The notes under the pieces were generated by a model. It worked only from the letters and a program-made list of their open reading frames with translations, was not told where the DNA came from and ran no database searches. This document shows positions 9,389 to 54,998 of a stretch of DNA of 64,000 nt, one piece after another. The position numbers and the translations under genes are program-made. The stretch is from the NCBI RefSeq assembly GCF_001687625.2, contig NZ_CP016538.2, positions 654,001-718,000 of the forward strand, written 5' to 3'. The stretch is from Planococcus maritimus (lineage in GTDB: Bacteria > Bacillota > Bacilli > Bacillales_A > Planococcaceae). The stretch's first letter is position 1. Each line of letters starts with the position of its first letter.

Positions 9389-9475
9389 TGTCCCTGTGCA
9401 CCACACAATTCTGCGGACAAGAACATTGATGTATAGGGGTTTGTGTTGTGTAGCGTCCCTGTGTAAGACACAATT
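9389..9475 (+). repeat. Paired 22-bp repeat, 65-bp spacing
   Basis: Two direct copies of the 22-bp repeat start at 9389 and 9454. The 43-bp spacer contains GGGTTT at spacer position 27, as in other pairs. The first copy begins 7 bp after the stop of the upstream gene and is oriented with it; the second ends a few bases before the terminator stem. Confidence 0.9.
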
Positions 9476-9481
9476 CATCGC

Positions 9482-9541
9482 AAAAAACACCCTCTATTGA
9501 GCGATTGGCATTTGTCGCCGCTCAATGGAGGGTGTTTTTTC
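9482..9541. terminator. Bidirectional intrinsic terminator
   Basis: A 17-bp stem (ACACCCTCTATTGAGCG with its complement, one mismatch) is flanked by A and T runs on both sides. It serves the convergent coiled-coil and amidase genes. Confidence 0.9.
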
Positions 9542-9554
9542 GTGTCTATAAAAT

Positions 9555-11012
9555 TCAGTACGACTCCAAATCCGGCACAATCCGTTTCTGCGTCGCTTGC
9601 TCGTAAGAATATGCCAGTTCAATCAATCGAGCTTCGCTGAATGCCTGTGCGCTGAACGTCACACCGACCGGATGGCCATCTGCTATGTAGCCGGCTGGCA
9701 CGGTAATCGACGGGTAGCCGGCTTTTGCCGGCATCGCTGCGCCGCGGTTGTTTTGGAACAATAATGCGTCGAGCTGATGCTGCTTCACGACAAGATCGAT
9801 GCCTTCTGAAGTAGAAGAACGAAAGTCGATTTCGCGGTGCTCCAAATACGTCGCGTCGTTCGGGTCGTCACTTAGCGATTGGGCTTTGTCCAAGACAGCT
9901 TGGCCGAATTTCATGCGGCGCTCGGGGTCTTGCTTGTTGAAGTCGATGACGTCTGCTAGTGATTTAACCGGCACGTCTTCAGGTGTAGTGGCGAGATAGT
10001 CGTTAACGCCGCGCTTGAATTCATACCATAACACGTCCGATTCAAAATCTTTTTGTGGAATCGTCAGTTCAACGATGGTAGCGCCGAGTGCTTTGATTTG
10101 CTCGATGGCTGCATCCATAATGGCACGTTCTTCCGGTGCTTCATTGTTTAAAAACGCGAGATCGACGCCGATGCGGGCGCCTTTCAAACCGTCTGCTTTG
10201 AGATGCGGCGTGTAGTCGGTGAGTGCTTGGCCTTCGCTCTTCAGTGTTGCCGGATCTTGTTCGTCGACGCCAGTCATCGCGCCGAGCAAGATGGCCGCAT
10301 CCGTCACAGTGCGTGCCATTGGTCCAGCAGTATCCTGGCTTTCAGAAATCGGGATGATGCGCGAGCGGCTGATGAGCCCGACGGTTGGCTTGATGCCGAC
10401 GATGGAATTAGCACTGGATGGGCTGAGGATCGAGCCTGAGGTTTCCGTGCCGACACCGACCACTGCGAAGTTCGACGCAATTGCAGCACCCGTCCCAGAA
10501 CTTGAGCCGCCGACATCTTCTGCTTCAAAAACATCGATGCCGTACGGATTTTTCACTTGGCCGGCGAGCGAGCTATAGCCGCTCGGGCCGTCTTGCGACA
10601 TGAAATACGCCCATTCGCTCAAATTTACTTTGCCGAGGATGATGGCGCCGGCATCGCGCAGTTGCTTTGCCACGAACGCATCTTCATTCGCGAAATTGTG
10701 TTCAAGCGCGATGGCACCGGCAGTCGTCGGCATCGGGTCTTTTGTTTCGATATTGTCTTTCAGCAATACAGGGATGCCGTAAAGCGGACCTTGCCCGTCT
10801 TGTCCTCGTTTTTCGTCCAGCTCGGCTGCGATTGCCAAGGCGTCTGGATTGATCGCCCGGACGGAATTGATTTTCGGGCCGTTTTGGTCGTAGGCTTCGA
10901 TTCGGTCGAGGTAGGCTTGGACCAATTCGACAGAGGTCAGTTTTTGTTCGCGGAATGCTTGTTGGATATCTTCGATTGTTGCTTCGATCAGTTTGAAAGT
11001 GCTTGTTTCCAT
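9555..11012 (-). CDS. Amidase signature family hydrolase
   Basis: This 485-residue protein of the GatA/amidase signature family hydrolyses a carboxamide. The catalytic Ser-cisSer-Lys set is visible: Lys85 in LLKDN, the GGSSSGTGAA loop at 168-177, and Ser194 in ETSGSILSPS. The start at 11012 has GAGGAG upstream; a GTG 15 bp earlier overlaps that site and is rejected. It is not beside gatC or gatB, so a role in tRNA-Gln formation is unlikely; a stand-alone amidase is the better reading. Substrate unknown. A five-copy repeat cluster lies upstream of its start. Confidence 0.9.
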   Translation of the reverse strand: METSTFKLIEATIEDIQQAFREQKLTSVELVQAYLDRIEAYDQNGPKINSVRAINPDALAIAAELDEKRGQDGQGPLYGIPVLLKDNIETKDPMPTTAGAIALEHNFANEDAFVAKQLRDAGAIILGKVNLSEWAYFMSQDGPSGYSSLAGQVKNPYGIDVFEAEDVGGSSSGTGAAIASNFAVVGVGTETSGSILSPSSANSIVGIKPTVGLISRSRIIPISESQDTAGPMARTVTDAAILLGAMTGVDEQDPATLKSEGQALTDYTPHLKADGLKGARIGVDLAFLNNEAPEERAIMDAAIEQIKALGATIVELTIPQKDFESDVLWYEFKRGVNDYLATTPEDVPVKSLADVIDFNKQDPERRMKFGQAVLDKAQSLSDDPNDATYLEHREIDFRSSTSEGIDLVVKQHQLDALLFQNNRGAAMPAKAGYPSITVPAGYIADGHPVGVTFSAQAFSEARLIELAYSYEQATQKRIVPDLESY

Positions 11013-11090
11013 ATGTAGGCTCCTCACTGGTTTGGTGTATCTTCTTTAATTGTACATGAATTCCTAATTTTGCATAAAGTTTTGCCTATG

Positions 11091-11347
11091 TGTCCCTGTG
11101 CGCGACACAATTCTAGAGTTGAGAAGCTTGGTGTAGCAGGGTTTTTAGGCTGTGGCGTCCCTGTGCGCGACACAATTCTAGAGTTGAGAAGCTTGGTGTA
11201 GCAGGGTTTTTAGGCTGTGGCGTCCCTGTGCGCCACACAATTCGGCGGATTTTTCGCGTATGTCCCTGTGCAAGACACAATTTCAGGGGTGTAAACCCTG
11301 TTGTATCAAGGTTCTCGTGTAGCGATGTCCCTGTGCGCCACACAATT
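11091..11347 (+). repeat. Cluster of five 22-bp repeats
   Basis: Copies start at 11091, 11156, 11221, 11261 and 11326, giving steps of 65, 65, 40 and 65 bp. The first two 65-bp units (11092-11156 and 11157-11221) are an exact tandem duplication, including the spacer, so it is recent. The cluster fills most of the 486-bp gap between the divergent amidase and M14 peptidase genes. Confidence 0.92.
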
Positions 11348-11498
11348 AATTCTTTTTTAGTCGCGAAAGGAATATTTCATTAACTGGAATAAAGTCCTAT
11401 TTTTAATAATTACTCCTTTTGGCTACTTCGGATTGCGAAATATTCTGTTATATTGGGATCTGGTAATAAAAATTACAAGGTGAAGGGATGTTGAGTAG

Positions 11499-14252
11499 AT
11501 GAAAAAAGTTTTTGCAGGATGGCTCTCGGTAGTGCTGGTATTGTCAGCGTTTGTGCCGCCAATGGCCGCAAATGAAACGGGGGCAAGCTCCACTGAACAA
11601 GCGACTGCGCTTGAAGTGAGCCGTTCGGTCTTTTCATTGACCGAAGCGCGCACTGTTGAAGTGTCGGCTGATTTGGGCGAAGGGGTCGATTTGGAAGATG
11701 TCGAATTCCAGTTTGGCGGAAAGCCGTTGTCTGAATGGCAGCAATGGACCCAAGGCCAAAGCTACAATGGCGACCCGTTCATCACCGTCGTGGAAGAACC
11801 TTCTTTTGTAGAAGGCACGAACAAAATCACCGCAGTGCTGGAATTCGGTTTGCTGTACGGGACGGATGATTTGTCCAACCGCACGATCCGCACGCAATAC
11901 CAGCAATTTATCGGCGATTATGAACTGGCGCTGGTTGATGCGGCAAGCGGTGACAAAGCGGCAGCGACCGTCGAATTGAATGTCTACGATGAGTTCAAGT
12001 TTTACGATGAATTAAAACCGGCGATCGATGATATTTTCGAAGCCGCTGAACAAGATGCGGACAACGATCGTTACCTGGAGTATCAGACCGTCGGCAAAAC
12101 GGTGGAAGGGCGCGATATTCATTTCGTCATTTTGGCTCGAGATGAAGCAGCAGTCGATCAGTATTTGAATGAAACTTTACCGACTGCACTCGAAGATCCG
12201 GAAAGTTTAATTGAAAAACTTGAGAACGATACGATGGGCGATTACCAAGTGCCGATCTGGTTCAATAATATCCACCCGGATGAAGTGGAAGGCGTGGATG
12301 TGCAAGTTGAATTGTTGGAGAAATTCGCTTTGGAAGACGAAGTGAAATTCATGAATACAGACGGCGACACGGAATTTGAAGAGAATTTGAACGTCGACGA
12401 AGTGCTCGACGATGCGATTTTCCTTTATATGTTCACGAGCAACCCGGACGGCAGAGCGGCCAACACGCGCGCGAATGCCGAGGGTTTTGACTTGAACCGC
12501 GACAATGCGTACCAGACGCAAGTGGAAACGCAGCAAGTGAATGAAGTGCTCTCAAAATGGACACCGTTATCGTTTGTGGATTTCCACGGTTATGTGGACG
12601 GCTTCTTAATCGAACCGGCAACACCGCCGCATAACCCGAACTTTGAATACGATTTATTGATCGACAATATGATGGAACAAGCGAATGCCATGGGCAATGC
12701 CGGTATCGCGAATTCAGAGCTGACGTCTTATTTCATTGCCAAAGACGGCTATGGTTCTGGTTGGGATGATATGACGCCAGCTTATACGGCGATTTATGCG
12801 ATGCTTCATGGTTCGCTCGGCCATACGATCGAAGTGCCGACGCTGAGCCAGGACGGCTATAATGCGTTAGTCGGCAGTGGCCTAGGTGCGGCGAATTATG
12901 TGCATGACAATAAAGACCAATTGTATAAAGAGCAATTGGAGATTTTCAAGCGCGGCGTGGACGGGGAAGATAACCGTGCCGTCGATGAATATTACGTCAA
13001 TGCGGCAGGTGAAGTGATCGGCCGCGACCGCGGGGATAATGAAAACTTCTTCCCTGATTATTACGTGATTCCAACAGATGACAAGAATCAGAAGAATGCG
13101 TTGGAAGCGTATAATATGGCGGATTATTTGATTCGCAATGGCGTGGAAGTGGAGAAGACCGTGAAACCTGTCGAGGTGGACGGTGTGACCTATCCGAAAG
13201 GCACATTCATCGTGCCGATGGACCAGGCGAAACGCGGCTTGGCGAATGCCATGCTTTATGAAGGCGATGACGTATCTGATTGGGATGCGATGTATGACCC
13301 GATCGTCGTTAATTTCTCTGACTTGAGAGGTTTTGATCTGGAAGAAGTTCGTGTTGAAAATGCATTTGATGGAAAGACTCAGGAACTTGAAGAAGCGATT
13401 GTTCCGACAAGTACCGTAAAAGGCAACCCGCCGAAACAAATTTTGGAGAACTCCACGAACGATGCGATCCGTGTCGTTAACGCGTTGCTTGCTGATGGCA
13501 AGACGGTGGAAGTGCTGACAGAGAGTAAAGGAAAAGCGGAAGCCGGAGATTTCGTCGTCGCAACGAACGATCTTCGCGCGTATGCGGATGATTATTATTT
13601 TGAAACGCAAGTATTCGGCAACGGCAAAAATGCGGACACCGAATTATTGGAGCAGCCGAGTGTTGCAGCAACCGGTTCTGCGCAGTTGAACTTCTCGTTG
13701 CGTCAGCTTGGCTTTGAACTGACGGACGCTGCAGGAGCGGATGTCATCGTCAGCGATGGCGGTTCATTCGACGCAGCACAAGTGACCGGCAAAACTTTTG
13801 TCGGAATCGGTGCACCTGCGTTAAACGCAGTCAGTAAGAGTGGATTGCTTCCAGGCTTTGCGTATACGAGCACGGGAAGCAGACACGAAGGACTCGTGAA
13901 AGCAGACGTCGCGGAACATCCGTTGACGGCTGGGTACGAAGAACAAGAAAACCTTTATGTCACAACCGGTTCGTGGATCTCAGGCGTTCCTGAAGGCGCA
14001 GAAGTTCTTGCAAGCTTCCAGAACAGAGACGATTTCTATCTCGCCGGCTGGTGGCCTGGCTATGAACAAGCACAAGGCCAAACGATGGCGATTACGGCTG
14101 AGCAGGGAGAGACGACATTTAATTTGTTTGCCAACTCTCTCGCGTTCCGTGCCCATACCGAACACAGCTACCGCTTCATTGCGAATTCGATTTATGATGC
14201 AGTGAGTGTTGAAGCTGAGATTGTGGAGAAAGGGAAAGGGAAGAAGAAGTAG
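11499..14252 (+). CDS. Secreted M14 family zinc carboxypeptidase
   Basis: This 917-residue exoenzyme starts with a Sec signal peptide (MKKVFAGWLSVVLVLSAFVPPMAA, cleavage likely after residue 24). The peptidase M14 domain spans roughly 195-480: zinc ligands His259 and Glu262 in NIHPDE, His363 in DFHGY, and a candidate catalytic Glu445 in TIEVP. The next ~440 residues are beta-rich and end in a lysine-rich tail (EKGKGKKK), which may hold the protein at the wall by charge. No LPXTG motif is present. It is monocistronic, closed by a strong terminator, and a repeat pair begins 7 bp after the stop. Confidence 0.88.
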   Translation: MKKVFAGWLSVVLVLSAFVPPMAANETGASSTEQATALEVSRSVFSLTEARTVEVSADLGEGVDLEDVEFQFGGKPLSEWQQWTQGQSYNGDPFITVVEEPSFVEGTNKITAVLEFGLLYGTDDLSNRTIRTQYQQFIGDYELALVDAASGDKAAATVELNVYDEFKFYDELKPAIDDIFEAAEQDADNDRYLEYQTVGKTVEGRDIHFVILARDEAAVDQYLNETLPTALEDPESLIEKLENDTMGDYQVPIWFNNIHPDEVEGVDVQVELLEKFALEDEVKFMNTDGDTEFEENLNVDEVLDDAIFLYMFTSNPDGRAANTRANAEGFDLNRDNAYQTQVETQQVNEVLSKWTPLSFVDFHGYVDGFLIEPATPPHNPNFEYDLLIDNMMEQANAMGNAGIANSELTSYFIAKDGYGSGWDDMTPAYTAIYAMLHGSLGHTIEVPTLSQDGYNALVGSGLGAANYVHDNKDQLYKEQLEIFKRGVDGEDNRAVDEYYVNAAGEVIGRDRGDNENFFPDYYVIPTDDKNQKNALEAYNMADYLIRNGVEVEKTVKPVEVDGVTYPKGTFIVPMDQAKRGLANAMLYEGDDVSDWDAMYDPIVVNFSDLRGFDLEEVRVENAFDGKTQELEEAIVPTSTVKGNPPKQILENSTNDAIRVVNALLADGKTVEVLTESKGKAEAGDFVVATNDLRAYADDYYFETQVFGNGKNADTELLEQPSVAATGSAQLNFSLRQLGFELTDAAGADVIVSDGGSFDAAQVTGKTFVGIGAPALNAVSKSGLLPGFAYTSTGSRHEGLVKADVAEHPLTAGYEEQENLYVTTGSWISGVPEGAEVLASFQNRDDFYLAGWWPGYEQAQGQTMAITAEQGETTFNLFANSLAFRAHTEHSYRFIANSIYDAVSVEAEIVEKGKGKKK

Positions 14253-14259
14253 TAGTGCG

Positions 14260-14346
14260 TGTCCCTGTGCACCACACAATTCTCCGGGCAAGAACCTTGA
14301 GGTAGCAGCGTTTGTGTGACGCGACGTCCCTGTGCAAGAAACAATT
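14260..14346 (+). repeat. Paired 22-bp repeat, 65-bp spacing
   Basis: Copies start at 14260 and 14325, 7 bp after the M14 peptidase stop codon and in the same orientation. The second copy ends 3 bp before the terminator stem, so the pair would lie in the 3' untranslated part of that mRNA. Confidence 0.9.
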
Positions 14347-14349
14347 CGG

Positions 14350-14386
14350 GATCCGCTCCATTCGACAATGGAGCGGATCTCTTTTT
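14350..14386 (+). terminator. Intrinsic terminator of the M14 peptidase gene
   Basis: A 13-bp perfect stem (GATCCGCTCCATT / AATGGAGCGGATC) with a 4-base loop is followed by CTTTTT. Confidence 0.9.
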
Positions 14387-14476
14387 ATTCCCCCAAAAAA
14401 TTTCGGAAGCCGAATGATTTGAATTCGCATATATGTAAGAGTAATCTGAAAATAAACTTGAGAGGAGTGGAATCGA

Positions 14477-15319: not shown

Positions 15320-15406
15320 TGTCCCTGTGCAAGATACAATTCGAGTGTCCAGTTAACTGTGTTGAAAGGGATCTGGTGAAAAAATGCCCCTGTGCGAGAC
15401 ACAATT
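15320..15406 (+). repeat. Paired 22-bp repeat, 65-bp spacing
   Basis: Copies start at 15320 (the very next base after the aldo/keto reductase stop) and 15385. The second copy ends at 15406 and the terminator stem starts at 15407. The spacer core is poorly conserved here. Confidence 0.88.
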
Positions 15407-15452
15407 AAAGACACATCCGCTGCAAAAGCTAGCGGATGTGTCTTTGTTTTTT
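15407..15452. terminator. Bidirectional terminator between convergent genes
   Basis: A perfect 15-bp stem (AAAGACACATCCGCT / AGCGGATGTGTCTTT) is followed by T-rich sequence. It reaches into the stop codon of the convergent MFS gene. Confidence 0.88.
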
Positions 15453-16638
15453 ATTCATCAGAACGAATTGTGTGGGAATTGTGTGCTGCACAGGGACGGG
15501 GTCTACTCGTCTGCGTAGAGACAGGCTGAGCATTCATTTTAATGAAGATAAACAACAAGCCAATCACCGCGAATGACAGGAAGGCGATCGGATAAGACAT
15601 GCCATCGATCAAGGCGCCTGCCGCGATGGAGCCGAGCGATTGCCCGACGCCGAGCGAGAAGAACGACAAGCTGACGCCGACAGAAGGTGTATCCGGGAAA
15701 TGGCGCGTGCCCCAGACGATGAATAAGCCGGTCATGAATATGAATGAGATGCCGAACAAGATGGCCGACAAGTAGATGGCGGCTGCGTGCGGAATGACCA
15801 ATGTGATGAGAGAGGCGGTCGCGACCAACACGCCTAGGCGATAAGACCAGCCGAGCCCGATGCGTTGAATGATGGTCCCCGCGATGCCGCCGATGATGCC
15901 AGAGGCGCCCATGATGATCCAGAAGATGGTGCTTCCCGTTACAGAGAAATCGTGCACTTCGGTCAAGTAGCTGCGTGAAAAGGTCCAGTAGATGGAGGAA
16001 CTGAAGCCGATGCCGATTGCAGCGATAATCATGAAACGCACTTGGCCGAGCATGCTGAGTGTAAACTGTTTGCCAGTAGATTCTTCCGGCTGTTCTTTGG
16101 CGCGTTCAATCGTCCGAGCGTTCCACCAGAAGGTCAAGAAAGCGAGTAGCGCGAACAGTACATAGCCCCAGCGCCACTGTTCGGCAAATGCCAATGCGAC
16201 AGGCCCGCTCGCGACGACTCCGACGCTCGTGCCGGTGTTGATCCACGTATTGCCTTTGTCGCGCTCACGGCTCTCAAGCGATTGTGCGACGACTTGGCTG
16301 AATGCGGGTGACACCCAGCCGCTGCCGAGCCCCGCAACAAATGCGCTGATGGCGAGCGTGTAGAATCCTTGAGAGGCCGCCATTCCGAGCATGCCGATAA
16401 CAGCGGTAGCCCCTGAATACAATACGACGTGACGGGCGCTCATTTTATGAATGAACATAGCCGCTGTCACCAAGGCCAGTGTGTAGGCAGCATACGCCAC
16501 CGAACCGATCAATCCCGACTGGCTTTCAGATAAGTTTAAGGTGCTGCTGATTTCCGGCAAGAACAAGCCGAAGCTGTATCTGGCGAACGCATAGGTGACG
16601 CCGATCATGGCGATGCCAGGCAAAACGATTTTCCACAT
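15451..16638 (-). CDS. YbfB/YjiJ-type MFS transporter
   Basis: This 395-residue carrier has 12 hydrophobic segments and the YbfB-like start (GIAMIGVTYAFARYSFGLFLPEIS). The last ~15 residues (RPCAAHNSHTIRSDE) are encoded by a 22-bp repeat and its partial duplication, so the natural C-terminus seems to have been replaced or extended. It is transcribed with or next to the TetR gene upstream, and two copies of the TetR palindrome lie before its start, so it is probably a repressed efflux pump. Substrate unknown. Confidence 0.85.
   Translation of the reverse strand: MWKIVLPGIAMIGVTYAFARYSFGLFLPEISSTLNLSESQSGLIGSVAYAAYTLALVTAAMFIHKMSARHVVLYSGATAVIGMLGMAASQGFYTLAISAFVAGLGSGWVSPAFSQVVAQSLESRERDKGNTWINTGTSVGVVASGPVALAFAEQWRWGYVLFALLAFLTFWWNARTIERAKEQPEESTGKQFTLSMLGQVRFMIIAAIGIGFSSSIYWTFSRSYLTEVHDFSVTGSTIFWIIMGASGIIGGIAGTIIQRIGLGWSYRLGVLVATASLITLVIPHAAAIYLSAILFGISFIFMTGLFIVWGTRHFPDTPSVGVSLSFFSLGVGQSLGSIAAGALIDGMSYPIAFLSFAVIGLLFIFIKMNAQPVSTQTSRPRPCAAHNSHTIRSDE
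15477..15498 (-). repeat. 22-bp repeat inside the 3' end of the MFS gene
   Basis: A single copy is read on the minus strand and co-oriented with the gene it sits in. It is preceded at 15465-15476 by a 12-bp partial duplicate (AATTGTGTGGG), a pattern repeated exactly next to the copy at 25981. Confidence 0.85.
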
Positions 16639-16660
16639 GATTATTCACTCCTTTTATTAT

Positions 16661-16678
16661 ATAGAACGGTCATTCTAT
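16661..16678. promoter_or_regulatory. TetR-type operator upstream of the MFS gene
   Basis: The palindrome ATAGAACGGTCATTCTAT, with arms ATAGAA/TTCTAT, lies 23 bp before the MFS start. The same ACGGTCA centre recurs at 16714 and 17305. Confidence 0.75.
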
Positions 16679-16713
16679 TTTGATGGTAAAAATTTTTAGC
16701 TTTAGTTTTATAG

Positions 16714-16729
16714 ATAGAACGGTCACTAT
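16714..16729. promoter_or_regulatory. Second TetR-type operator half-conserved copy
   Basis: ATAGAACGGTCACTAT shares the left arm and centre with the operator at 16661 but has a weaker right arm. It sits between the TetR and MFS genes. Confidence 0.6.
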
Positions 16730-16764
16730 ACTTTCGCGGTAAAAAAAGTAAGCGATCCGCTTAC

Positions 16765-17283: not shown

Positions 17284-17304
17284 GGTCTCCATCCTCCAAT
17301 GGGT

Positions 17305-17326
17305 TTAGATATAACGGTCACTCTAA
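17305..17326. promoter_or_regulatory. TetR-type operator upstream of its own gene
   Basis: TTAGA and TCTAA arms flank ATAACGGTCAC, matching the centre of the two sites before the MFS gene. It lies about 20 bp from the TetR start codon. Confidence 0.7.
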
Positions 17327-18455: not shown

Positions 18456-18475
18456 TTCTTTGCTCGTGAATAGAT

Positions 18476-22060: not shown

Positions 22061-22082
22061 TGTCCCTGTGCGCCACACAATT
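22061..22082 (+). repeat. Single 22-bp repeat
   Basis: A lone copy starts 1 bp after the BstA-like stop codon, co-oriented with it and 5 bp before the terminator stem. Confidence 0.88.
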
Positions 22083-23241: not shown

Positions 23242-23328
23242 TGTCCCTGTGCGCCACACAATTTGAGAGAGGAAAACCTTGCAACAGCTGGGTTTCAGCG
23301 CCTTGCTGTCCCTGTGCATCACACAATT
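23242..23328 (+). repeat. Paired 22-bp repeat, 65-bp spacing
   Basis: Copies start at 23242 and 23307 between the divergent exporter and ABC genes, not at a gene 3' end. The spacer shows the palindromic core AAAACC...GGGTTT most clearly. Confidence 0.9.
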
Positions 23329-24219: not shown

Positions 24220-25861
24220 GTTTCAATCGTTGAAGTTTCTCGCTTTTTTCAAAGGCATCTTTCTCCGGTTGGGCGTCGATTATGAAGTCATGGAAAAAAT
24301 ATTGCGCATCAAATTGACGATGGATGAGCGGCGCGTGCCGACGATTTTCGCCGAGAATGGCAAAAAGAAAAAAGAAGGCAATCAGTTCCTGAAATCGCTG
24401 TGGATCTACGGCTTATACAGTTTGATCTTAATCCCGTTTTTATTGCTCGGGGAAAATTATATATATCAAGTGAGCATCGTGTTCGGCATGATCCTGTTCA
24501 TCTTGATGACGTCGATGATTTCCGATTTTTCCGTGGTGCTATTGGATGTCCGGGATAAGAACATTATCCAGACCAAGCCGGTCGATAAAAAGACCATCGC
24601 GGCGGCAAAAATTGTCCATATCATGATTTACATGACTTTTGTCGCTGGGGCTTTTACGGCGATCCCTTTCCTCGTCGGGCTGTTTCGGCACGGCATCGTC
24701 TTTTCAATCATTTTCTTTATTGAACTCGTCTTGACGATTTTATTGGTCGTCGTCTTGACTTCGCTGCTGTATTTATTCATCCTGCGTTTTTTCGATGGGG
24801 AAAAATTAAAAGATATCATCAATTACGTCCAGATCTTGCTGTCGGTCGGAGTGGTCGTGGGCTATCAAGTATTGATCCGGTCGTTTGAAGTTGTCGATTT
24901 GGATATGGCCTACACGTTCAGCTGGTGGCATTTCCTGATTCCGCCGCTTTGGTACGGAGCGCCGTTTGAAGTCTTGTTAAACGGCAATTCCTCGAACTAT
25001 TTCATCGCCTTTACAGTGCTTGCAGTGCTGATTCCGCTGGTCGCGATCTATGCTTACGCCAAGCTGATGCCATCCTTTGAACGCAATCTTGAAAAGCTGT
25101 TGAGCGACACGAAAACACGCAAGAAATCCATTAATTGGCTGGATGAGGCGGGCGCTAAGTGGCTATGCCGCTCGAAGGAAGAACGCGTATTTTACCGTTT
25201 TGCTGCTTCGATGATGAAAAAAGAACGGGAATTCAAACTGAAAGTATTTCCCGTGCTCGGAATGGCGCTGTTTTTCCCATTTCTCTTTATTTTCACCTAT
25301 TCAGTGGACGGCGGTTTAGAGGAGATTGCAGATGGCAATATGTTCATGTTTATCTATTTCTGCAATGTCATCATTCCGAGTGTTGTGTTCATGCTGAAGT
25401 TTTCAGCAGGCTATAAAGGCAGCTGGCTTTTCCGCGCGGCACCGATTGAGCGGATTTCAGCTATTCACAGCGGAACCTTGAAAGCCTTTTTTGTGAAATT
25501 GTATATTCCGATTTTCGTGTTTTTATCCTTGGTCTTTATCTGGATATTCTCAGCAAGAATTTTGCCGGACCTCGCCGCCGTTTTACTCGGCGGCTTGCTG
25601 CAAACCTTGATCACCTATAAAATCGCGAACGGCAGCGATTTGCCATTTTCCATGTCCTTCGAATTTGCCCAGGAATCAGGCGGCGCGAAGATGCTGCTGC
25701 TGACTTTGATCACAGGGGCCTTTATCGGTGCGCATTTCCTGGCGAACGCCTTTCATTACGGGATTTATGTGTACGCCGGGGTGTTAGTGGTGGCGATAGG
25801 AATCGGCTGGCGAATGGTGTTTGCGGAAACGGGCGCTGTCCCTGTGCAAGACACAATTTGA
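24212..25861 (+). CDS. ABC transporter permease whose C-terminus is encoded by a repeat
   Basis: The start at 24212 overlaps the ATPase stop; an in-frame ATG 21 bp earlier is less likely. The 549-residue protein has about ten membrane spans in two blocks (about 65-270 and 350-535) separated by a soluble loop (EERVFYRFAASMMKKEREFK), broadly like EcsB-type permeases but larger. The last seven codons before TGA (VPVQDTI) are the 22-bp repeat at 25837-25858, so the repeat supplies both the C-terminus and the context of the stop. Confidence 0.85.
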   Translation: MREFQSLKFLAFFKGIFLRLGVDYEVMEKILRIKLTMDERRVPTIFAENGKKKKEGNQFLKSLWIYGLYSLILIPFLLLGENYIYQVSIVFGMILFILMTSMISDFSVVLLDVRDKNIIQTKPVDKKTIAAAKIVHIMIYMTFVAGAFTAIPFLVGLFRHGIVFSIIFFIELVLTILLVVVLTSLLYLFILRFFDGEKLKDIINYVQILLSVGVVVGYQVLIRSFEVVDLDMAYTFSWWHFLIPPLWYGAPFEVLLNGNSSNYFIAFTVLAVLIPLVAIYAYAKLMPSFERNLEKLLSDTKTRKKSINWLDEAGAKWLCRSKEERVFYRFAASMMKKEREFKLKVFPVLGMALFFPFLFIFTYSVDGGLEEIADGNMFMFIYFCNVIIPSVVFMLKFSAGYKGSWLFRAAPIERISAIHSGTLKAFFVKLYIPIFVFLSLVFIWIFSARILPDLAAVLLGGLLQTLITYKIANGSDLPFSMSFEFAQESGGAKMLLLTLITGAFIGAHFLANAFHYGIYVYAGVLVVAIGIGWRMVFAETGAVPVQDTI

Positions 25862-25923
25862 AGAGGAAAATACTTGGTACAGCTGCATTTCGGTGTAGGT
25901 CTGTCCCTGTGCATCACACAATT
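25837..25923 (+). repeat. Paired 22-bp repeat, 65-bp spacing, overlapping a stop codon
   Basis: Copies start at 25837 and 25902. The first is translated as the end of the ABC permease and the stop codon follows it directly; the second ends 1 bp before the terminator stem. Confidence 0.9.
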
Positions 25924-25980: not shown

Positions 25981-26002
25981 AATTGTGTGGTGCACAGGGA
26001 CA
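25981..26002 (-). repeat. Single inverted 22-bp repeat after the terminator
   Basis: A minus-strand copy has its AATT end facing the terminator. A 12-bp partial duplicate (AATTGTGTGGG) precedes it at 25970-25980, as at 15465. Confidence 0.87.
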
Positions 26003-28372: not shown

Positions 28373-28459
28373 TGTCCCTGTGCGCCACACAATTCGGCAG
28401 AACGAAACCTTTCTGTATCGGGGTTTTGGTGTGTGAATGTCCCTGTGCACCACACAATT
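28373..28459 (+). repeat. Paired 22-bp repeat, 65-bp spacing
   Basis: Copies start at 28373 (16 bp after the UvrA-like stop, co-oriented) and 28438. The second is followed by 40 bp of the TspO-like gene leader. No terminator hairpin is visible, so the pair may be the only element between the two genes. Confidence 0.9.
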
Positions 28460-33054: not shown

Positions 33055-33076
33055 TGTCCCTGTGCACGACGCAATT
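33055..33076 (+). repeat. Single 22-bp repeat abutting the glpK stop
   Basis: The copy begins directly after TAA and has one arm mutation (CGCA for CACA). The glpK terminator follows at 33114. Confidence 0.85.
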
Positions 33077-33153: not shown

Positions 33154-33262
33154 AATTGTGTGATGCACAGGGGCGAAGTTTTTCCGGGAGTGCCCGCAAT
33201 CCTTTTCATGGCGCAATTCGCCGCAAGAGGAGGGGTGTTGAATTGTTTGGTGCACAGGGACA
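33154..33262 (-). repeat. Paired inverted 22-bp repeats, 87-bp spacing
   Basis: Minus-strand copies start (AATT side) at 33154 and 33241, with the AATT end of the first facing the glpK terminator. The 65-bp spacer includes GCGCAATTCG, possibly a decayed third copy. No minus-strand gene is nearby, so this pair is not a 3' untranslated element of a visible gene. Confidence 0.85.
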
Positions 33263-35663: not shown

Positions 35664-35762
35664 AATTGTGTGGTGCACAGGGACAATAAACCGTTCGTCA
35701 AGCCAAAATCCCACGCTGTGTCTTGCTTCTGGGCGCATGGAATTGTGTGGCGCACAGGGACA
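35664..35762 (-). repeat. Paired inverted 22-bp repeats, 77-bp spacing
   Basis: Minus-strand copies start at 35664 and 35741. The AATT end of the first faces the terminator 8 bp away. The pair sits in the leader of the macro-domain gene. Confidence 0.88.
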
Positions 35763-45170: not shown

Positions 45171-45279
45171 TGTCCCTGTGCACGGCACAATTCAGCTGGG
45201 GAGGAGTTGTCGGAAATGGCGGAGGGAGAGGGTTTTCGGGGCTTGGGAAGTTGTGTGCGTCCCTGTGCGCCACACAATT
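45171..45279 (+). repeat. Paired 22-bp repeats, 87-bp spacing
   Basis: Copies start at 45171 and 45258 between the divergent glcT and nagP genes. The second copy ends 3 bp before the cre box of nagP. Confidence 0.9.
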
Positions 45280-47294: not shown

Positions 47295-47305
47295 ATCGAA
47301 ACAAC

Positions 47306-47343
47306 AGCCGGGGAGGTCGCATATGATTTTCCCGGCTTTTCCT
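47306..47343 (+). terminator. Weak hairpin between nagP and nagA
   Basis: AGCCGGGGA pairs with TTTCCCGGCT followed by TTTT. It lies directly before the nagA ribosome binding site, so it may cut transcription partly rather than end it. Confidence 0.55.
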
Positions 47344-47357
47344 AAGGAGGGATTCAA

Positions 47358-49264: not shown

Positions 49265-49269
49265 ATCTG

Positions 49270-49992: not shown

Positions 49993-50082
49993 CCACTGGA
50001 AACCCCTTCGATTAAAGGGGCTAATGCTAGTAGCCATGGCGAATTACATGATTCATTCGAATACACAAGGGAGCTGGAATGA

Positions 50083-50817
50083 ATGTTAACGGCATACTTT
50101 GAAAAAATACAAGAAAAGCTCCAAGTAATTGAAGCGAGTGAAAAAGACAATATGGTTGAAGCGGCGCAGAAAATAGCTGAAGCGATCGCGCACGGCCACA
50201 TCGTCCACTTATTCGGCTGCGGACATTCGCATATCTTAACGGAAGAAGTGTTTTTCCGCGCAGGCGGCCTGGTGCCCATCCGTCCGATCTTGATCGAACC
50301 GCTGATGCTCCACGAAGGCGCCGTCACGTCCTCCCAATTAGAGCGGCAGCCTGATTACGCCGCGAGCTTTCTAGCGGAAGAGGATTTCCGTCCCGGAGAC
50401 GTGCTGATCATCCTATCGACCTCAGGACGCAACCCGGTGCCGGTCGATGTAGCGATGTACGCCCGTGAAAAAGGTGTCTTTTCGATCGGGCTGACGTCCC
50501 TGGAATATTCCCGGAGCCAGCCTTCCCGCCACAGCAGCGGAAACCACTTATACAACGCTGTCGATCTGGTCATCGACAATCATTCTGTCGCCGGAGACGC
50601 CGTCCTTTCTTACGACAAAGTAAAAGTTCCGTTCGGCCCGACCTCGACGGTTGTGGGAGCGACGATTTTAAACGCCATCTTCGCTGAGGCGATTAAACAG
50701 ATGGCCGACCAAGGGTTCGACCCGCCCGTGTTTTTGAGCGGCAACATTGACGGCGCCGATGACCACAATCAGCGACTTGTGGAAAAGTACCGCGAGCGGA
50801 TTCCTTTGTTGTCATGA
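50083..50817 (+). CDS. SIS domain protein (UPF0309-like)
   Basis: The 244-residue sugar-isomerase-fold protein has HLFGCGHSHILTEEVFFRAGGL, ILSTSGRNPVPVDVA and VKVPFGPTSTVVGA. It lies 90 bp after nagR on the same strand, so it probably acts on a phosphosugar from the same pathway, such as MurNAc-6-phosphate or a GlcNAc derivative. GGGAGCTGG precedes the ATG. A 22-bp repeat follows the stop with no gap. Confidence 0.8.
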   Translation: MLTAYFEKIQEKLQVIEASEKDNMVEAAQKIAEAIAHGHIVHLFGCGHSHILTEEVFFRAGGLVPIRPILIEPLMLHEGAVTSSQLERQPDYAASFLAEEDFRPGDVLIILSTSGRNPVPVDVAMYAREKGVFSIGLTSLEYSRSQPSRHSSGNHLYNAVDLVIDNHSVAGDAVLSYDKVKVPFGPTSTVVGATILNAIFAEAIKQMADQGFDPPVFLSGNIDGADDHNQRLVEKYRERIPLLS

Positions 50818-50904
50818 TGTCCCTGTGCACCACACAATTCGCGCGAGGGAAAAGGCGGTGTTGCTGGGTTTATGCCCGGTTGCGTCCCTGTGCAAGACAC
50901 AATT
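50818..50904 (+). repeat. Paired 22-bp repeat, 65-bp spacing
   Basis: Copies start at 50818 (directly after the SIS gene TGA) and 50883. The spacer core GGGTTT is present at position 27. No terminator hairpin is visible after the pair. Confidence 0.9.
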
Positions 50905-51058
50905 CGCGTTAAAGCAGGAACAAGTATTGCAAAGCTAGAAGTAAGAAATGGAAGAGAACCGAATTGCCGGATTGATTATCGAATGGACAAGGGCTTGCCC
51001 ACTGCAAGAGAACCGTGCAATAAAGACATGGCATATTGTAGAAAAGGGGAGAAGGCAT

Positions 51059-52027
51059 ATGAAAGCGATGGTCTGCACGCGTTACGGAACCCCGGAAACT
51101 TTGGAACTGCAGGAACTTGAAAAACCGAGGCCAAAAGCCAAAGAAATCAGCATCAAAGTCCTGGCATCTACCGTCACGGCGGGGGATTGTGAGATGCGCA
51201 GCTTTACGTTTCCCCCTTATCTACGGTTGCCGATGCGTCTGCTATTCGGTGCTCGCAAGCCGCGAATGAAAGTCTTGGGACAGGAGTTCGCGGGCATGGT
51301 GGAAGCGGTCGGGGAGAGCCAAAAACATTTCAAAATAGGCGATCGTGTAGTCGGATCGACTGGGATGAAGCTCGGCGCGAATGCTGAGTATGTCTGTCTG
51401 CCAGAGCGCTATGCGATTGTCCGCATGCCAGACGAGCTTGATTATGAACAGGCCGCCACGATTCCCACAGGTGGAATGAACGCCTTATTCTTCCTCCGGA
51501 AAGCCAATATCCAAGAGGGGCAAAAAGTATTGATCATCGGAGCGGGCGGCAGCATCGGCACGATCGCCGTGCAGCTGGCGAAACACGAAGGCGCTGAAGT
51601 GACAGCGATCGACCGGCAGGAAAAGTTGGACATGCTTTTATCGGTCGGGACGGACAAGGTCATTGATTACGAGCGTGAAGATTTTACGGCGAATGGCGAA
51701 ACTTACGATGTCATTTTTGACATCGTCGGGAAAAATACATTCGCGCAAGCTAAGGGTTCATTGAAACCGACGGGCATTTACTTGATCGGCAATCCGAGTC
51801 TTAGCGAAGTCCTGCAGAAATTTAAGGGAAAAAGAAAAGGCTCGGGCAGAGTCTATGTGGGGGTAGCGGATTACAAAACCGATGATTTGCGTTATTTGGT
51901 GGAGTTGTTTGCGGCTGGACAGATGAAGGCAGTCATCGATCGCACGTATCCACTCACCGAGCTAGCTCAAGCGCATCGTTATGTGGAGAGCGGGATGAAA
52001 AAAGGGAATGTGGTTATGGTGCATTGA
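51059..52027 (+). CDS. Medium-chain dehydrogenase/quinone oxidoreductase-like protein
   Basis: The ATG at 51059 follows GGGGAGAAGG; the 37 upstream in-frame codons look non-coding. The 322-residue MDR protein has the GroES-like N-terminal domain without the structural-zinc cysteines and the Rossmann motif GAGGSIGTIAVQLAKHEGAEV. It resembles zeta-crystallin or QOR-type NADPH reductases and probably reduces quinones or enones. A repeat pair starts 1 bp after the stop. Confidence 0.85.
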   Translation: MKAMVCTRYGTPETLELQELEKPRPKAKEISIKVLASTVTAGDCEMRSFTFPPYLRLPMRLLFGARKPRMKVLGQEFAGMVEAVGESQKHFKIGDRVVGSTGMKLGANAEYVCLPERYAIVRMPDELDYEQAATIPTGGMNALFFLRKANIQEGQKVLIIGAGGSIGTIAVQLAKHEGAEVTAIDRQEKLDMLLSVGTDKVIDYEREDFTANGETYDVIFDIVGKNTFAQAKGSLKPTGIYLIGNPSLSEVLQKFKGKRKGSGRVYVGVADYKTDDLRYLVELFAAGQMKAVIDRTYPLTELAQAHRYVESGMKKGNVVMVH

Positions 52028-52028
52028 A

Positions 52029-52126
52029 TGTCCCTGTGCAAGACACAATTCATTGAGGGGTGAATGTTGTTGTGACAGCTTTTTTAGATGATGTGCACTG
52101 AAAATGTCCCTGTGTAAGACACAATT
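52029..52126 (+). repeat. Paired 22-bp repeats, 76-bp spacing
   Basis: Copies start at 52029 (1 bp after the MDR stop, co-oriented) and 52105. This pair and the inverted pair at 52294 flank a bidirectional terminator between convergent genes and fill much of the gap 52028-52417. Confidence 0.9.
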
Positions 52127-52235
52127 CAAGCTACTGCAATATAACGCTCGACTATGGAAATCTAACCGGTTTACAGCGAATCGTTGATCAGCTAAGGCCA
52201 TAATTGGATAGGTACTTTAAACGTGGTTGAAACGC

Positions 52236-52288
52236 AAAAAGCATGAAGCCTTCCCCTATTCTCTAAGGGAAGGCTTCATGCTTTTTTT
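52236..52288. terminator. Bidirectional terminator
   Basis: A perfect 20-bp stem (AAAAAGCATGAAGCCTTCCC and complement) with an 11-base loop and T runs on both strands, between the convergent MDR and M50-like genes. Confidence 0.93.
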
Positions 52289-52293
52289 AGTCA

Positions 52294-52402
52294 AATTGTG
52301 TGATGCACAGGGACGTGCGTCAATGAAAAGAAATCAAGAATGCAGTCATACCAGTATTCTCAGTCATTTTCTACGAGTAGAATTGTGCCGTGCACAGGGA
52401 CA
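52294..52402 (-). repeat. Paired inverted 22-bp repeats, 87-bp spacing
   Basis: Minus-strand copies start at 52294 and 52381. They lie between the stop of the M50-like gene (15 bp away) and the terminator, co-oriented with that gene. Confidence 0.9.
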
Positions 52403-52417
52403 GCCACACAATACGTC

Positions 52418-52924
52418 TCAGTCAATCGTTCTGTTATTGGTGCTTTCGCGGAGGTTTTGATAGATGCGCAAACCATCGGATGGATAGCCCGCCAATGCGC
52501 CGGCGAAACCAGGGTAGGTAACGGGGATCGCGCTCATCAGAAATAGACAGAAATTGACCGCGGCAAATGGATAGGCATAGTAAAAGCTGCCTGTACTGCT
52601 AATAGATGCACCATAAGCTATGATTCCAGCGACTAGCGAAAACACAGGGCCGCCCATATCAATGAAGAGTCGCTGTGCGGGGGATAAGGGAGGAATATCC
52701 TTATAGTTAGAAACCAGACAGAACCCTGAAAATCCCCAACCAAGGTAAAAATGAATCTTGCGGATGCTAAATGCTAATTTATTCTTCTTATGTGGCGTGC
52801 CCAGAAAAATATTCGCCTCGCCAGATGTTGTTGATAGGATGATTGGCAAAGCGTGCCCCAGTTCATGGAGCAGGATGGAAGTGGGCAATAAAATGAAAAA
52901 GATAACGAATAGCTCGATGATCAA
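52418..52924 (-). CDS. M50-like membrane metalloprotease
   Basis: The 168-residue membrane protein has HELGH (residues 20-24) in the first span (LLPTSILLHELGHALPI), about four hydrophobic segments, and a possible second metal motif near the end (GFAGALAGYPSDGLRIYQNL). The pattern fits site-2 protease relatives (peptidase M50B-like), small and without a PDZ domain. Target unknown. Its promoter is visible upstream. Confidence 0.7.
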   Translation of the reverse strand: MIIELFVIFFILLPTSILLHELGHALPIILSTTSGEANIFLGTPHKKNKLAFSIRKIHFYLGWGFSGFCLVSNYKDIPPLSPAQRLFIDMGGPVFSLVAGIIAYGASISSTGSFYYAYPFAAVNFCLFLMSAIPVTYPGFAGALAGYPSDGLRIYQNLRESTNNRTID

Positions 52925-52950
52925 ATAGCATTCTCCTCCGGAACGTCTTA

Positions 52951-52979
52951 ACTATAGTGATAGTCGATTCATTTGTCAT
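52951..52979 (-). promoter_or_regulatory. Promoter of the M50-like gene
   Basis: On the minus strand, ATGACA and TATAGT are exactly 17 bp apart, about 30 bp before the start codon. Confidence 0.6.
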
Positions 52980-53032
52980 AATAGTATAAATAAATGAAAT
53001 AAAAGTCAATTTTCTCTTTTATTTCCAATCAA

Positions 53033-53079
53033 AAAAAGCAACACAGCTCCCGAATATACAGGAGTTGCGTTGCTTTTTG
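53033..53079. terminator. Terminator downstream of adenine deaminase
   Basis: AAAAAGCAACACAGCTCC pairs with GGAGTTGCGTTGCTTTTT with two mismatches; T runs at both sides. Confidence 0.85.
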
Positions 53080-53084
53080 TCTTG

Positions 53085-53193
53085 AATTGTGTGGTGCACA
53101 GGGACAGAACCAACGTCGCCCATAACAGAAACGCCGTCAAATCAAGGTTCTGGAGAGGGCGCTAACGGTTGAATTGCGCGGTGCACAGGGACA
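53085..53193 (-). repeat. Paired inverted 22-bp repeats, 87-bp spacing
   Basis: Minus-strand copies start at 53085 and 53172. They lie between the adenine deaminase stop (7 bp gap) and the terminator, co-oriented with the gene. The spacer keeps the AGAACCTTG part of the shared core. Confidence 0.9.
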
Positions 53194-53200
53194 CAAAGTT

Positions 53201-54928
53201 CTATCCTTCCCCCACGACTACTTCAATATGGCGGAAACTCGCGACATCGAACAATCCGCGGTCGGTTAGTTTTAGGTGGGGGATGACCGGCAGCGATAGG
53301 AATGACAAGGTCAGGAATGCATTGAAATGGGTCGGTGCGCCAATCTGCAACAGGCTTTTATCAATTGCCTTAAGCTGGTCGTAGACGGCGGGGAACGGTT
53401 CGTCGGACATCAATCCGGCAATCGGCAGCGGCAGGCTTGCCAGGATTTGGCCGTTTTGGACGACAGCGAGCCCGCCTTGCAGCTCGTGAAGGGCATCAAT
53501 GGCTAGGAGCATGTCTTCGTCATTCGTTCCGACGACAATTACATTATGAGAATCGTGTGCAACGGTGGTGGCGATGGCGCCATTTTGAAGGCCCAGCCCT
53601 TTGACGATGCCAAGGCCGATATTGCCGGTGGCCCGGTGGCGTTCGATGACGGCGATTTTTAAATGGCCGCTCGCAGCGTCTGAAACAAAATTTCCGTCAA
53701 CGACAGGGACGTCTTCGATGATATGCTCAGTGATCAATTTGTTTGGGTTGATGCCAATGACATGTGCTTTCGTATGGGTACCCATCGGAATTTCCAAATC
53801 GCTTGTCGATAAGTCGGCCACGCGCACCGTATCGCGGACAGCTGAGGTATCGCTCGCTTCTTGGACGGGGTCGGTGTAGCGGCCATCTTTCGCCGCTAAT
53901 TGGCCGCCTTTATAGACTTCAGCAATCGCAAAGTCTTCCAATTGATCGAGCAGCACGAAATCTGCATCGTAGCCGGGGGCGATAGCACCTTTTCGAGACA
54001 AGCCGAAACATTGAGCGGCGTTAAGAGTTGCCATCGAAATGGCTGTGATCGGGTTGATGCCGTAGCGAATCGCTGTCCGAACATTGTAATCGACGCTGCC
54101 TTCGTCGATTAAATCGTCGAGATGCTTGTCATCTGTACAAAACAAACAACGGTGAGCGTTTTGTTCGGTGACGCCTTCAAGAAGGGCGTTCAAGTCTTTT
54201 GCGACCGAGCCTTCGCGCAGCATGACGTAAAGCCCGCGCTCAAGGCGCATCGCCATTTCTTCTTTTGTTACACATTCGTGATCTGTCAAAATGCCGGCCG
54301 TGCCGTAGACATTAATGTCGTTAGCGGTGAGGCCGGCCGCATGACCGTCAATTTGGCTGCTTAACAAAAGTTTGTCGAGCATCGCCTCGTCGCCATTGAG
54401 CACAGCCGGAAAATCCATCACTTCCGCTAGGCCGAGCACTTGGTCGCGTCCGACAAAAGGCCGCAAATCCTCAGCGGAAAGTTGGGCTCCCGCATTCTCA
54501 AAAGGCGTCGCAGGGACGCAGGACGGCAACATCATTTTAATGTCTAGCAAGGCTGACTCTGCATCTTTCAGCATAAATTCAAGTCCTGCCACTCCACTGA
54601 CATTGGCAATTTCGTGCGGATCGGTAATGACGGTTGTCACCCCGTGCGGCAAAACGATTTGTGAAAATTGCTGGGGCGTTACCATTGATGATTCGATATG
54701 GACGTGGGCGTCGATCAAGCCGGGTGCGAGGAATTGGCCTCTTGCATCGACTTCCTGAATGCCTTCGTAGTTGCCAATGCCGACGATCACACCGTCACAA
54801 ACCGCGACATCTCCGGTCGTTAAAGTTTTCGTGAAGACGTTGACAATCGAGGCATGGCGGATGACGAGATCTGCTTTTTTCTCTTTATTGGCTACGGCGA
54901 TCCTGTTTTTCAGTTGGGCTTTTGTCAT
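53201..54928 (-). CDS. adeC: Adenine deaminase
   Basis: The start at 54928 (MTKAQLKNRIAVANKEKKADLVIRHA) follows AAAGGAG; the longer frame adds 15 Cys-rich residues and is rejected. The 575-residue amidohydrolase matches Bacillus AdeC in length, with GLIDAHVHIESSM, TDPHEIANVSG and CTDDKHLDDLIDEGSVDYNVR. It turns adenine into hypoxanthine and ammonia in purine salvage. I see no purine riboswitch upstream. Confidence 0.94.
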   Translation of the reverse strand: MTKAQLKNRIAVANKEKKADLVIRHASIVNVFTKTLTTGDVAVCDGVIVGIGNYEGIQEVDARGQFLAPGLIDAHVHIESSMVTPQQFSQIVLPHGVTTVITDPHEIANVSGVAGLEFMLKDAESALLDIKMMLPSCVPATPFENAGAQLSAEDLRPFVGRDQVLGLAEVMDFPAVLNGDEAMLDKLLLSSQIDGHAAGLTANDINVYGTAGILTDHECVTKEEMAMRLERGLYVMLREGSVAKDLNALLEGVTEQNAHRCLFCTDDKHLDDLIDEGSVDYNVRTAIRYGINPITAISMATLNAAQCFGLSRKGAIAPGYDADFVLLDQLEDFAIAEVYKGGQLAAKDGRYTDPVQEASDTSAVRDTVRVADLSTSDLEIPMGTHTKAHVIGINPNKLITEHIIEDVPVVDGNFVSDAASGHLKIAVIERHRATGNIGLGIVKGLGLQNGAIATTVAHDSHNVIVVGTNDEDMLLAIDALHELQGGLAVVQNGQILASLPLPIAGLMSDEPFPAVYDQLKAIDKSLLQIGAPTHFNAFLTLSFLSLPVIPHLKLTDRGLFDVASFRHIEVVVGEG

Positions 54929-54998
54929 GGGGCAGCACGCTCCTTTGTCAGATTGGGTGGGGCATGGATACATAGTTTTGCTCTATTCTACAGTGTAA

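Follow-up and report, generated by a model that had tools for sequence, protein, structure and literature searches.

To our knowledge, it is unsettled how RAYT transposases spread REP sequences and why REPs hug the 3′ ends of genes. Transposons of the IS200/IS605 type, such as IS608 and ISDra2, have two ends in the same orientation. For known REP families, excerpts of PMC3733652 place extragenic copies often no more than about 20 bp from gene 3′ ends, and the portion of PMC2817692 drawn on here describes REPs accumulating near rayt, in regions of up to 200 kb, in three gammaproteobacteria and one betaproteobacterium. In the excerpts of this cited work, REP families are mostly genome-wide, with one blocky exception. 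Sections of PMC6006769 state that RAYT classes 2.6 and 3 depart from the GT[AG]G head and that elements of the IS200/IS605 type target the lagging strand.

The repeats described here, from Planococcus maritimus, form an atypical RAYT/REP family. Their core has the layout T-GTCCC-TGTG-N5-CACA-ATT, with a 4-bp stem, and most elements consist of two head-to-tail cores spaced by about 65, 76 or 87 bp. The window, the whole 64-kb stretch of DNA that was analysed, was searched with GTCCCTGTGCACCACACAATT at up to 5 mismatches and holds 37 copies in 19 elements; a list of the wider region has 22 (Table 1).

Repeat copies at stop codons

A preliminary description of the window listed 12 stop codons with adjoining copies, 0–16 bp after the stop or overlapping it. 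The coordinates are correct, all 12 copies are co-oriented with their genes, the gaps measure 1–17 bp, and the reading frame runs through the copy at 25861 and at 15451. That copies always take the gene's own orientation holds for these 12 of the 19 elements; of the other seven, three run antisense to both neighbouring genes and four occupy divergent gaps, 26–80 bp upstream of a start (11092+, 23243+, 45172+ and 55000+).

In seven genomes, 129 of 235 elements have a stop codon no more than 25 bp from the GTCCC end, and none of the 235 has one that near to the AATT end. After collapse of orthologs, the stop is at the GTCCC side of 38 of 73 sites and at the AATT side of 0 of 73 (38 versus 0, two-sided sign test ~7e-12). 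Of the 40 elements in the P. maritimus genome itself, 24 have a stop at the GTCCC side (13 belong to cluster A and 11 to cluster B), and 0 have one at the AATT side. This polarity is not chance. Tandem gaps in these genomes hold 85 elements that run with the genes and 35 antisense ones. Each region carrying the GTCCC...AATT family has at most 2 copies inside called genes; the family is thus extragenic.

These counts rest on gene calls from our own script (conserved or long open reading frames) rather than on annotation. Among 60 genomes, 11 have at least 40 copies, these per-genome totals being complete. The counts draw on seven of the 11, with partial coverage of G033 and G023; for G004 the analysis covered the RAYT locus and the copies, and G012, G024 and G026 stand outside the counts. 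Three methods of ortholog collapse gave 132, 55 or 73 sites; we use the 73-site set because the 55 sites are over-merged chains.

Doublet spacings at unique sites fall at 64–66 (41), 75–77 (9), 86–88 (12) and 69 bp (1), with none at 70–74 or 78–85. Uncollapsed data add single spacings of 89 and 97. Between species, cores are conserved and spacers are not. Two ideas about the spacer were set aside: a hairpin suspected from single sequences was unsupported by covariation and arm-swap controls, and, for replacement of spacers between elements, spacer identities of orthologous sites show a single broad distribution instead of two. Spacer identity falls below the 95th percentile of non-orthologous pairs in 56 of 122 orthologous pairs. 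Only switches of spacing class, at about 4 sites and by 11, 12 or 22 bp, suggest replacement.

Table 1. Repeat elements of the window and the terminator-like hairpins, read from the sequence, that some of them face
Feature	Position	Strand	Remarks
REP-like doublet	9390..9475	+	65 bp spacing; 8 bp after stop 9381; empty site in G013
Terminator-like hairpin	9488..9540 (limits approximate)	+	faced by AATT of 9390-9475
Five copies	11092..11347	+	spacing 65, 65, 40, 65 bp; divergent gap, not at stop
Doublet	14261..14346	+	8 bp after stop 14252
Terminator-like hairpin	14350..14379	+	faced by 14261-14346
Doublet	15321..15406	+	1 bp after stop 15319
Terminator-like hairpin	15410..15442	.	faced from both sides (15321+, 15477-)
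Single copy and remnant	15477..15497	-	read through by gene 15451-16638(-)
Single copy	22062..22082	+	2 bp after stop 22059
Doublet	23243..23328	+	divergent gap
Doublet	25838..25923	+	first copy read through by gene ending 25861
Single copy	25981..26001	-	antisense to both neighbours; faces, from far side, same terminator-like hairpin as 25838-25923
Doublet	28374..28459	+	17 bp after stop 28356 (16 counting preceding T)
Single copy	33056..33076	+	1 bp after stop 33054 (glpK)
Doublet, 87 bp spacing	33154..33261	-	antisense to both neighbours; faces terminator-like hairpin
Doublet, 77 bp spacing	35664..35761	-	antisense to both neighbours; faces terminator-like hairpin
Doublet, 87 bp spacing	45172..45279	+	divergent gap
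Doublet	50819..50904	+	1 bp after stop 50817
Doublet, 76 bp spacing	52030..52126	+	2 bp after stop 52027
Doublet, 87 bp spacing	52294..52401	-	16 bp after stop 52418 (-)
Doublet, 87 bp spacing	53085..53192	-	8 bp after stop 53201 (-), adenine deaminase
Doublet	55000..55085	+	divergent gap

Terminator hairpins, the transposase gene and two clusters

Hairpins were scored as stems of at least 7 bp in the 70 nt beyond an element end; the hairpin faced by 33154..33261, with a longest unbroken stem of 6 bp, is under this cut-off. Counts on 75, 18, 24 and 15 groups stem from the 132-group collapse. Stop-adjacent groups have such a stem on the AATT side in 53 of 75 cases and on the other side in 25 of 75. 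Part of this signal is expected from position alone, because stems are common behind stops in any case: 174 of 371 after-stop windows that lack an element contain one, as do 65 of 373 random gap windows. Where stop-adjacent sites have a hairpin, it starts 0–9 nt after AATT in 21 of 25; at element-free gene ends a hairpin is found in 277 of 472, with a median start 17 nt after the stop (middle half 7–32). Antisense groups show the hairpin on the AATT side in 12 of 18 and on the GTCCC side in 2 of 18 (5/8 and 0/8 sites under stricter collapse). In tandem gaps these antisense elements lie beyond the terminator, with AATT mostly toward the hairpin from its far side. No hairpin preference is seen in divergent gaps, which account for 16 of 73 sites (2/16 on each side), or in the 15 groups outside all other classes (6 and 5 on the two sides).

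The statement that AATT faces the terminator where one follows is borne out for most stop-adjacent copies (a hairpin at 25 of 38 sites; the other 13 have no 7-bp stem) and applies to most antisense copies as well. The terminator hairpin is a likelier anchor than the stop codon. An inserter, as the preliminary description had it, is likely, given a RAYT gene flanked by the repeats and one clean empty site; its recognition of stop-codon contexts, as a rule, is unsupported, and we reject it since most antisense copies retain the hairpin polarity.

The only Y1_Tnp gene of the genome (C1:2382979-2383314, E 7.2e-18) lies inside the repeats and scores 83.8 bits against the NCBIfam REP_Tyr_transpos cut-off of 80 bits. 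At this locus (L001) the copies are at 1175+, 1240+, 2049+, 2135+, 2225- and 2290-: 1175+ is upstream and 2290- downstream of the RAYT gene, and there are direct copies too, 2049+ and 2135+. At least 4 copies with the GTCCC-TGTG-loop-CACA layout are carried by 10 of 30 Planococcus Y1 loci; L011 has one. Several other Y1 loci of the genus, read by eye, have different repeats around the gene. Another RAYT family of the genus (GTGCCTGGCAC) has mostly symmetric palindromes, and extending the polarity to it failed: among 43 and 44 copies in two genomes, stops lie on the GTGCC side of 2 and 4 and on the AATT side of 4 and 4. Copies of family 3 are few, near their RAYT and partly inside duplications.

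At the sole clean empty site found, the relative G013 reads stop-TTAAAAT^CATACC-AAAAAACACCC, between the stop and its terminator, where the window has stop-AAGTGAAT-(86 bp)-CATCGC-AAAAAACACCC. There is no target duplication, and a hairpin similar to 9488..9540 is present at this site in G013. Elements are shared in 32 of 34 orthologous gaps from four genomes (first gene calls, some rows redundant). Most element positions are old and shared, so we make no claim of present-day mobility.

All 83 copies with up to 2 mismatches lie within 652–731 kb and 2383–2439 kb of the 3.28-Mb genome, on opposite chromosome arms. In four genomes, among the matches listed, the clusters lie about 650–770 kb from the origin on one arm and 840–1030 kb on the other, the origin being placed from parS. 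Genomic islands as the cause of two clusters are unsupported for region A, where gene order is collinear with a stretch of G013 (counting weak and displaced matches, 40 of 86 genes are matched in 800 kb of G013). Synteny is only partial for region B (20 of 91 genes), and its ptsI is an extra copy in G018 and G020. A search of 10 other genomes at E 1e-100, namely G061, G065 and eight that lack the strict motif, gave no match to a 917-aa gene of the window. For another RAYT family, one copy site in G034 is 804 kb away from the origin and the RAYT sits on the other arm, at 769 kb; in G027 the distances are 811 kb for the copy site and 870 kb for the RAYT.

A proposed mechanism and its alternatives

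With confidence a little better than even, we propose that a single RAYT mobilised the elements as single strands that landed just 5′ of a terminator hairpin, with AATT abutting it. The genome's one RAYT (TnpA_REP, of the Y1 HuH family) would mobilise doublets as single-stranded DNA and read the hairpin in that form, on whichever strand was single-stranded. On the coding strand, the slot would be the short stretch between stop codon and terminator, giving a stop-adjacent, gene-oriented copy; on the opposite strand, the same hairpin would give an antisense copy beyond the terminator. Polarity would then arise at insertion, not through later selection. A strict, countable polarity with local spread offers a natural test of where single-strand transposases insert, and suggests that closeness to a stop codon can arise as a side effect of targeting terminator hairpins.

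The preliminary description also considered a 3′ untranslated RNA element. In that case insertion would be random and only sense copies would survive at stops, by 3′-end protection or ribosome release, which we judge unlikely. Stop-adjacent copies are compatible with it, and in E. coli, REPs no more than 15 nt from a stop reportedly stall ribosomes (PMC12306157). Where orthologous sites could be aligned, identity is 95.9% over the 16 core positions, a figure partly biased because the motif itself was used to find the reference cores; the loop reaches 73.1%, the spacer 68.7% and element-free gaps 83.9%. Copies also stay intact in G004, where no RAYT was found: 46 of 56 match the core pattern exactly. 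The stem as such is little supported, since among 69 changed pairs 45 are broken, 23 kept through a one-sided change and 1 through a double change, and an Rfam 15 scan of the window at gathering score gave 0 matches. A purely 3′-UTR role leaves antisense and divergent copies unexplained, and antisense copies past the terminator show the same hairpin polarity. The doublets could instead be double-stranded binding sites, domesticated from REPs and bound, in two chromosomal regions, by a protein that requires the two cores on one face of the helix. The spacing classes lie about one helical turn apart, 109 of 134 orthologous pairs have identical spacing despite a median spacer identity of 0.66 (length is kept in 55 of 145 pairs of element-free 40–120 bp gaps), and the class switches noted above fit as well. 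We nonetheless consider this quite improbable: the three length classes may be three subfamilies, with phasing drawn from few independent events; in a period scan of the 23 non-65 units, 10.5 bp does not stand out (resultant 0.78, compared with 0.82 at 11 and 0.84 at 11.5–12); the uncollapsed spacings of 89 and 97 exist; and the idea comes without a candidate protein and does not explain why AATT faces terminators.

Replication could set orientation if insertion went into the lagging-strand template, as in IS608, genes being co-oriented only because most run with the fork. Co-directionality with the fork is seen at 55 of 73 sites (p 1.7e-5) and at 18 of 23 convergent-gap sites (p 0.011), where the gene rule predicts nothing, and in head-on tandem gaps 21 of 26 elements (3 of 5 after collapse) are antisense to genes. 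The fork rule and the gene rule fit tandem gaps equally well, however (27/34 and 26/34), divergent gaps are at 10 of 16 (p 0.45), and with only two arms the effects of cluster and fork direction cannot be told apart. The five family-3 copies of G027 and G034 are oriented against the fork (origins inferred). Replication alone cannot yield 38 versus 0 at stops, where head-on genes too carry sense copies (18 of 129). We rate this explanation as very unlikely. A long shot, joined to single-stranded insertion just 5′ of terminator hairpins, is that elements insert only near the RAYT gene, in its own neighbourhood and in the facing part of the other arm; the repeats would then preserve, like fossils, how the chromosome was folded. 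The inter-arm offset has the sign expected if condensin is loaded at parS to the left of the origin. The offset is not mirror symmetry, the four genomes have common ancestry, and loss of a second RAYT copy is an alternative cause of the second cluster.

Comparison with known systems

Like described REP/RAYT systems, this one has just one Y1 HuH transposase gene, with members of its own repeat family on both sides, extragenic copies near gene 3′ ends (129/235 elements at a stop) and copies that accumulate around the rayt gene. It differs in having no GT[AG]G head, with GTCCC, TGTG-N5-CACA and a 4-bp stem instead; in direct, not inverted, doublets with strict polarity toward a terminator; and in a second cluster on the opposite arm rather than genome-wide dispersal (83/83 copies in two regions). 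REPINs and BIMEs share short repeats paired at regular spacing and a RAYT acting in trans, but REPIN pairs are inverted and the Planococcus pairs run head-to-tail. IS200/IS605-type transposons (IS608, ISDra2) are a possible parallel: the two cores of a doublet have the same orientation, the one empty site has no target duplication, and there is a fork bias. Unlike those transposons, the Planococcus doublet has no transposase gene between its cores.

Orientation of elements at stop codons

The REP-like core, whose ends we name GTCCC (5') and AATT (3'), occurs mostly as doublets, and such a doublet is treated here as one element. Genes were called by conservation and length, the side with a stop within 25 bp was scored for each element, and read-through of up to 60 bp was accepted. 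Across 13 regions of seven genomes, a stop lies on the GTCCC side of 129 of 235 elements and on the AATT side of 0/235. In the genome carrying the window the counts are 24/40 and 0/40, and after collapsing orthologous sites they are 38/73 and 0/73. Elements at stop codons are thus polar. The 12 stop-adjacent elements of the preliminary description are all real and all co-oriented with their gene (12/12), and the orientation statistics it proposed as a check, 129 against 0, agree with it. Its wording that copies always take the gene's own orientation holds for stop-adjacent elements and fails away from stops: tandem gaps between genes hold 85 sense and 35 antisense elements (seven genomes). Divergent gaps hold 47 of the 235 elements.

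Terminator hairpins and the replication fork

Hairpins were scored as stems of at least 7 bp within 70 nt of an element end. Among stop-adjacent groups of orthologous elements, a stem is found on the AATT side in 53/75 and on the GTCCC side in 25/75; under a stricter collapse, the values are 25/38 and 14/38 sites. The hairpin starts 0-9 nt past AATT in 21 of these 25 sites. Antisense tandem-gap elements (18 groups) lie beyond the terminator, mostly with AATT toward it; they have a stem on the AATT side in 12/18 and on the GTCCC side in 2/18, or 5/8 (offsets 6, 7, 10, 11 and 30) and 0/8 when collapsed strictly. Divergent groups (4/24 on either side) and groups of no other class (AATT 6/15, GTCCC 5/15) complete the comparison. 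As background, element-free windows have a stem in 65/373 random gaps and 174/371 positions after a stop, and element-free gene ends have one in 277/472, with a median hairpin start 17 nt past the stop. The stem counts and offsets on both strands therefore indicate that, whichever strand they are on, elements tend to be located 5' of a hairpin; divergent-gap elements are exempt. On the AATT side, no opposing stop is closer than 41 bp (132 collapsed groups), which leaves space enough for a terminator.

Orientation could also follow replication. The origin was taken from parS and the terminus from dif, using what we take to be their sequence patterns. Elements are co-directional with the fork at 55 of 73 sites, including 18/23 in convergent and 10/16 in divergent gaps; in tandem gaps a fork rule (27/34) and a gene rule (26/34) fit equally. 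Copies of family 3, a different RAYT (REP-associated tyrosine transposase) repeat family of the genus, run against the fork in G027 and G034. Because just two chromosome arms are involved, the fork bias is suggestive. Terminator hairpins best explain the element polarity; as to how the elements insert, we infer the mechanism.

One site bears on insertion directly. In G013, a genome without the strict motif in a whole-genome count and with 7 and 2 looser copies in two 400-kb stretches, the stop in the ortholog of the gene that ends at 9381 is followed by TTAAAATCATACC and next by the terminator's AAAAAACACCCTC. The corresponding order in the window is AAGTGAAT, a stretch of 86 bp running from GTCCC to AATT, CATCGC and AAAAAACACCCTC. 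In this one case, the insertion falls between the stop and a terminator that was already there, with no target duplication. The remaining G013 gene ends examined were too diverged or otherwise built for such a reading.

Copies, spacing and conservation

The genome is a single contig of 3,280,721 bp, of which the window covers 654,001-718,000, and the named sequences closest to its RAYT point to the genus Planococcus. With up to 5 mismatches to GTCCCTGTGCACCACACAATT, the 21-base core has 37 copies in the window, forming 19 elements, mostly head-to-tail doublets with 65 bp spacing. Genome-wide, GTCCCTGTGCNNNACACAATT with up to 2 mismatches gives 83 copies, all within 652,069-731,078 and 2,382,653-2,439,444, and a reversed-pattern control gives 0 matches; the repeats are confined to these two regions.

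The regions lie on opposite arms, at comparable origin distances that are not mirrored, and are the sole repeat-bearing ones. Two-region confinement is likewise seen in G018, G020 and G021, among the matches listed. One single-copy type recurs and is possibly an older subfamily; in most cases CTAAACGATT and a ACAATACAC-like stretch follow it. A GC-rich 85-bp direct repeat (3911-3995 and 62490-62574, 85% identical) has no connection with the findings described here.

Positions of the recurring single-copy type
Sequence	Position
Own genome, contig G000:C1	652069
Window	33056
Genome G018	345557
Genome G021	683684, 710255
Genome G013	657947, 659547

Over aligned positions, identity at orthologous sites is 0.959 for the core, 0.731 for the loop, 0.687 for the spacer, 0.816 for near flanks and 0.839 for element-free gaps. 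Less than 80% of the core is matched in 14/69 comparisons, among them the G013 empty site. Doublets at unique sites are spaced by 64-66 (41), 75-77 (9), 86-88 (12) and 69 (1); distances of 25, 40, 41 and 100 separate elements and are not doublet spacings. Doublet spacing is identical in 109/134 orthologous pairs, with a class switch at about four sites. The core stem shows little covariation, and none was found in the spacer.

The classes of 65, 76 and 87 bp are about one helical turn apart and are kept as spacer sequence drifts (7 genomes). A period scan of spacings did not single out 10.5 bp.

The RAYT gene and other families of the genus

The genome has just one Y1_Tnp gene, at the edge of the second cluster amid six copies. 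It scores above the cut-off of the REP-associated tyrosine transposase model, and its reading frame passes through one repeat copy before its stop. The repeats are thus linked to a RAYT. In G004 the RAYT is absent, and 46 of 56 copies match the core pattern without mismatch; the gene was apparently lost when the stretch between two direct copies of the repeat was deleted (1471-2088 of the own RAYT locus, L001, versus G004:C13 at about 2,402,156). In G024, which has 66 copies, no RAYT was found either.

A ptsI gene lies near the RAYT (G000:C1 2406989-2408695). G018 and G020 have two ptsI each, one near the RAYT and the second near dif; six further genomes with dif located have a single ptsI, near dif, and G000 and G021 show solely the copy near the RAYT.

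Of 46 genomes in the genus, 29 carry a Y1_Tnp gene, and several other Y1 loci there have different repeats. In G011, G027 and G034, copies of GTGCCTGGCAC cluster around their RAYT; G027 and G034 also have single sites away from it. In the draft assemblies G019, G022, G062 and G066 the copies are spread over several contigs. In G002, G005, G027 and G034, CCCTGTGNNCGGTNCAATTAT copies are no more than about 10 kb from a RAYT. A single stray match occurs in G065, and there is no match in G000, G007, G013 or G032. The GTGCCTGGCAC family consists mostly of symmetric palindromes (G011:C1 730-870 kb, G062:C10 140-300 kb), partly arrayed at 810.7-811.7 kb of G011 with a period of about 200-220 bp.

Literature searches, among them ones with the string GTCCCTGTGC and with Planococcus plus REP, returned no publication on this repeat among the matches listed, by titles and abstract openings. 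REPs near gene 3' ends and their accumulation close to a RAYT are already known, according to published reports (PMC3733652, PMC2817692, PMC6006769, PMC12306157). The Planococcus repeats form an atypical RAYT/REP family, one whose doublets are direct and whose copies are regionally confined.
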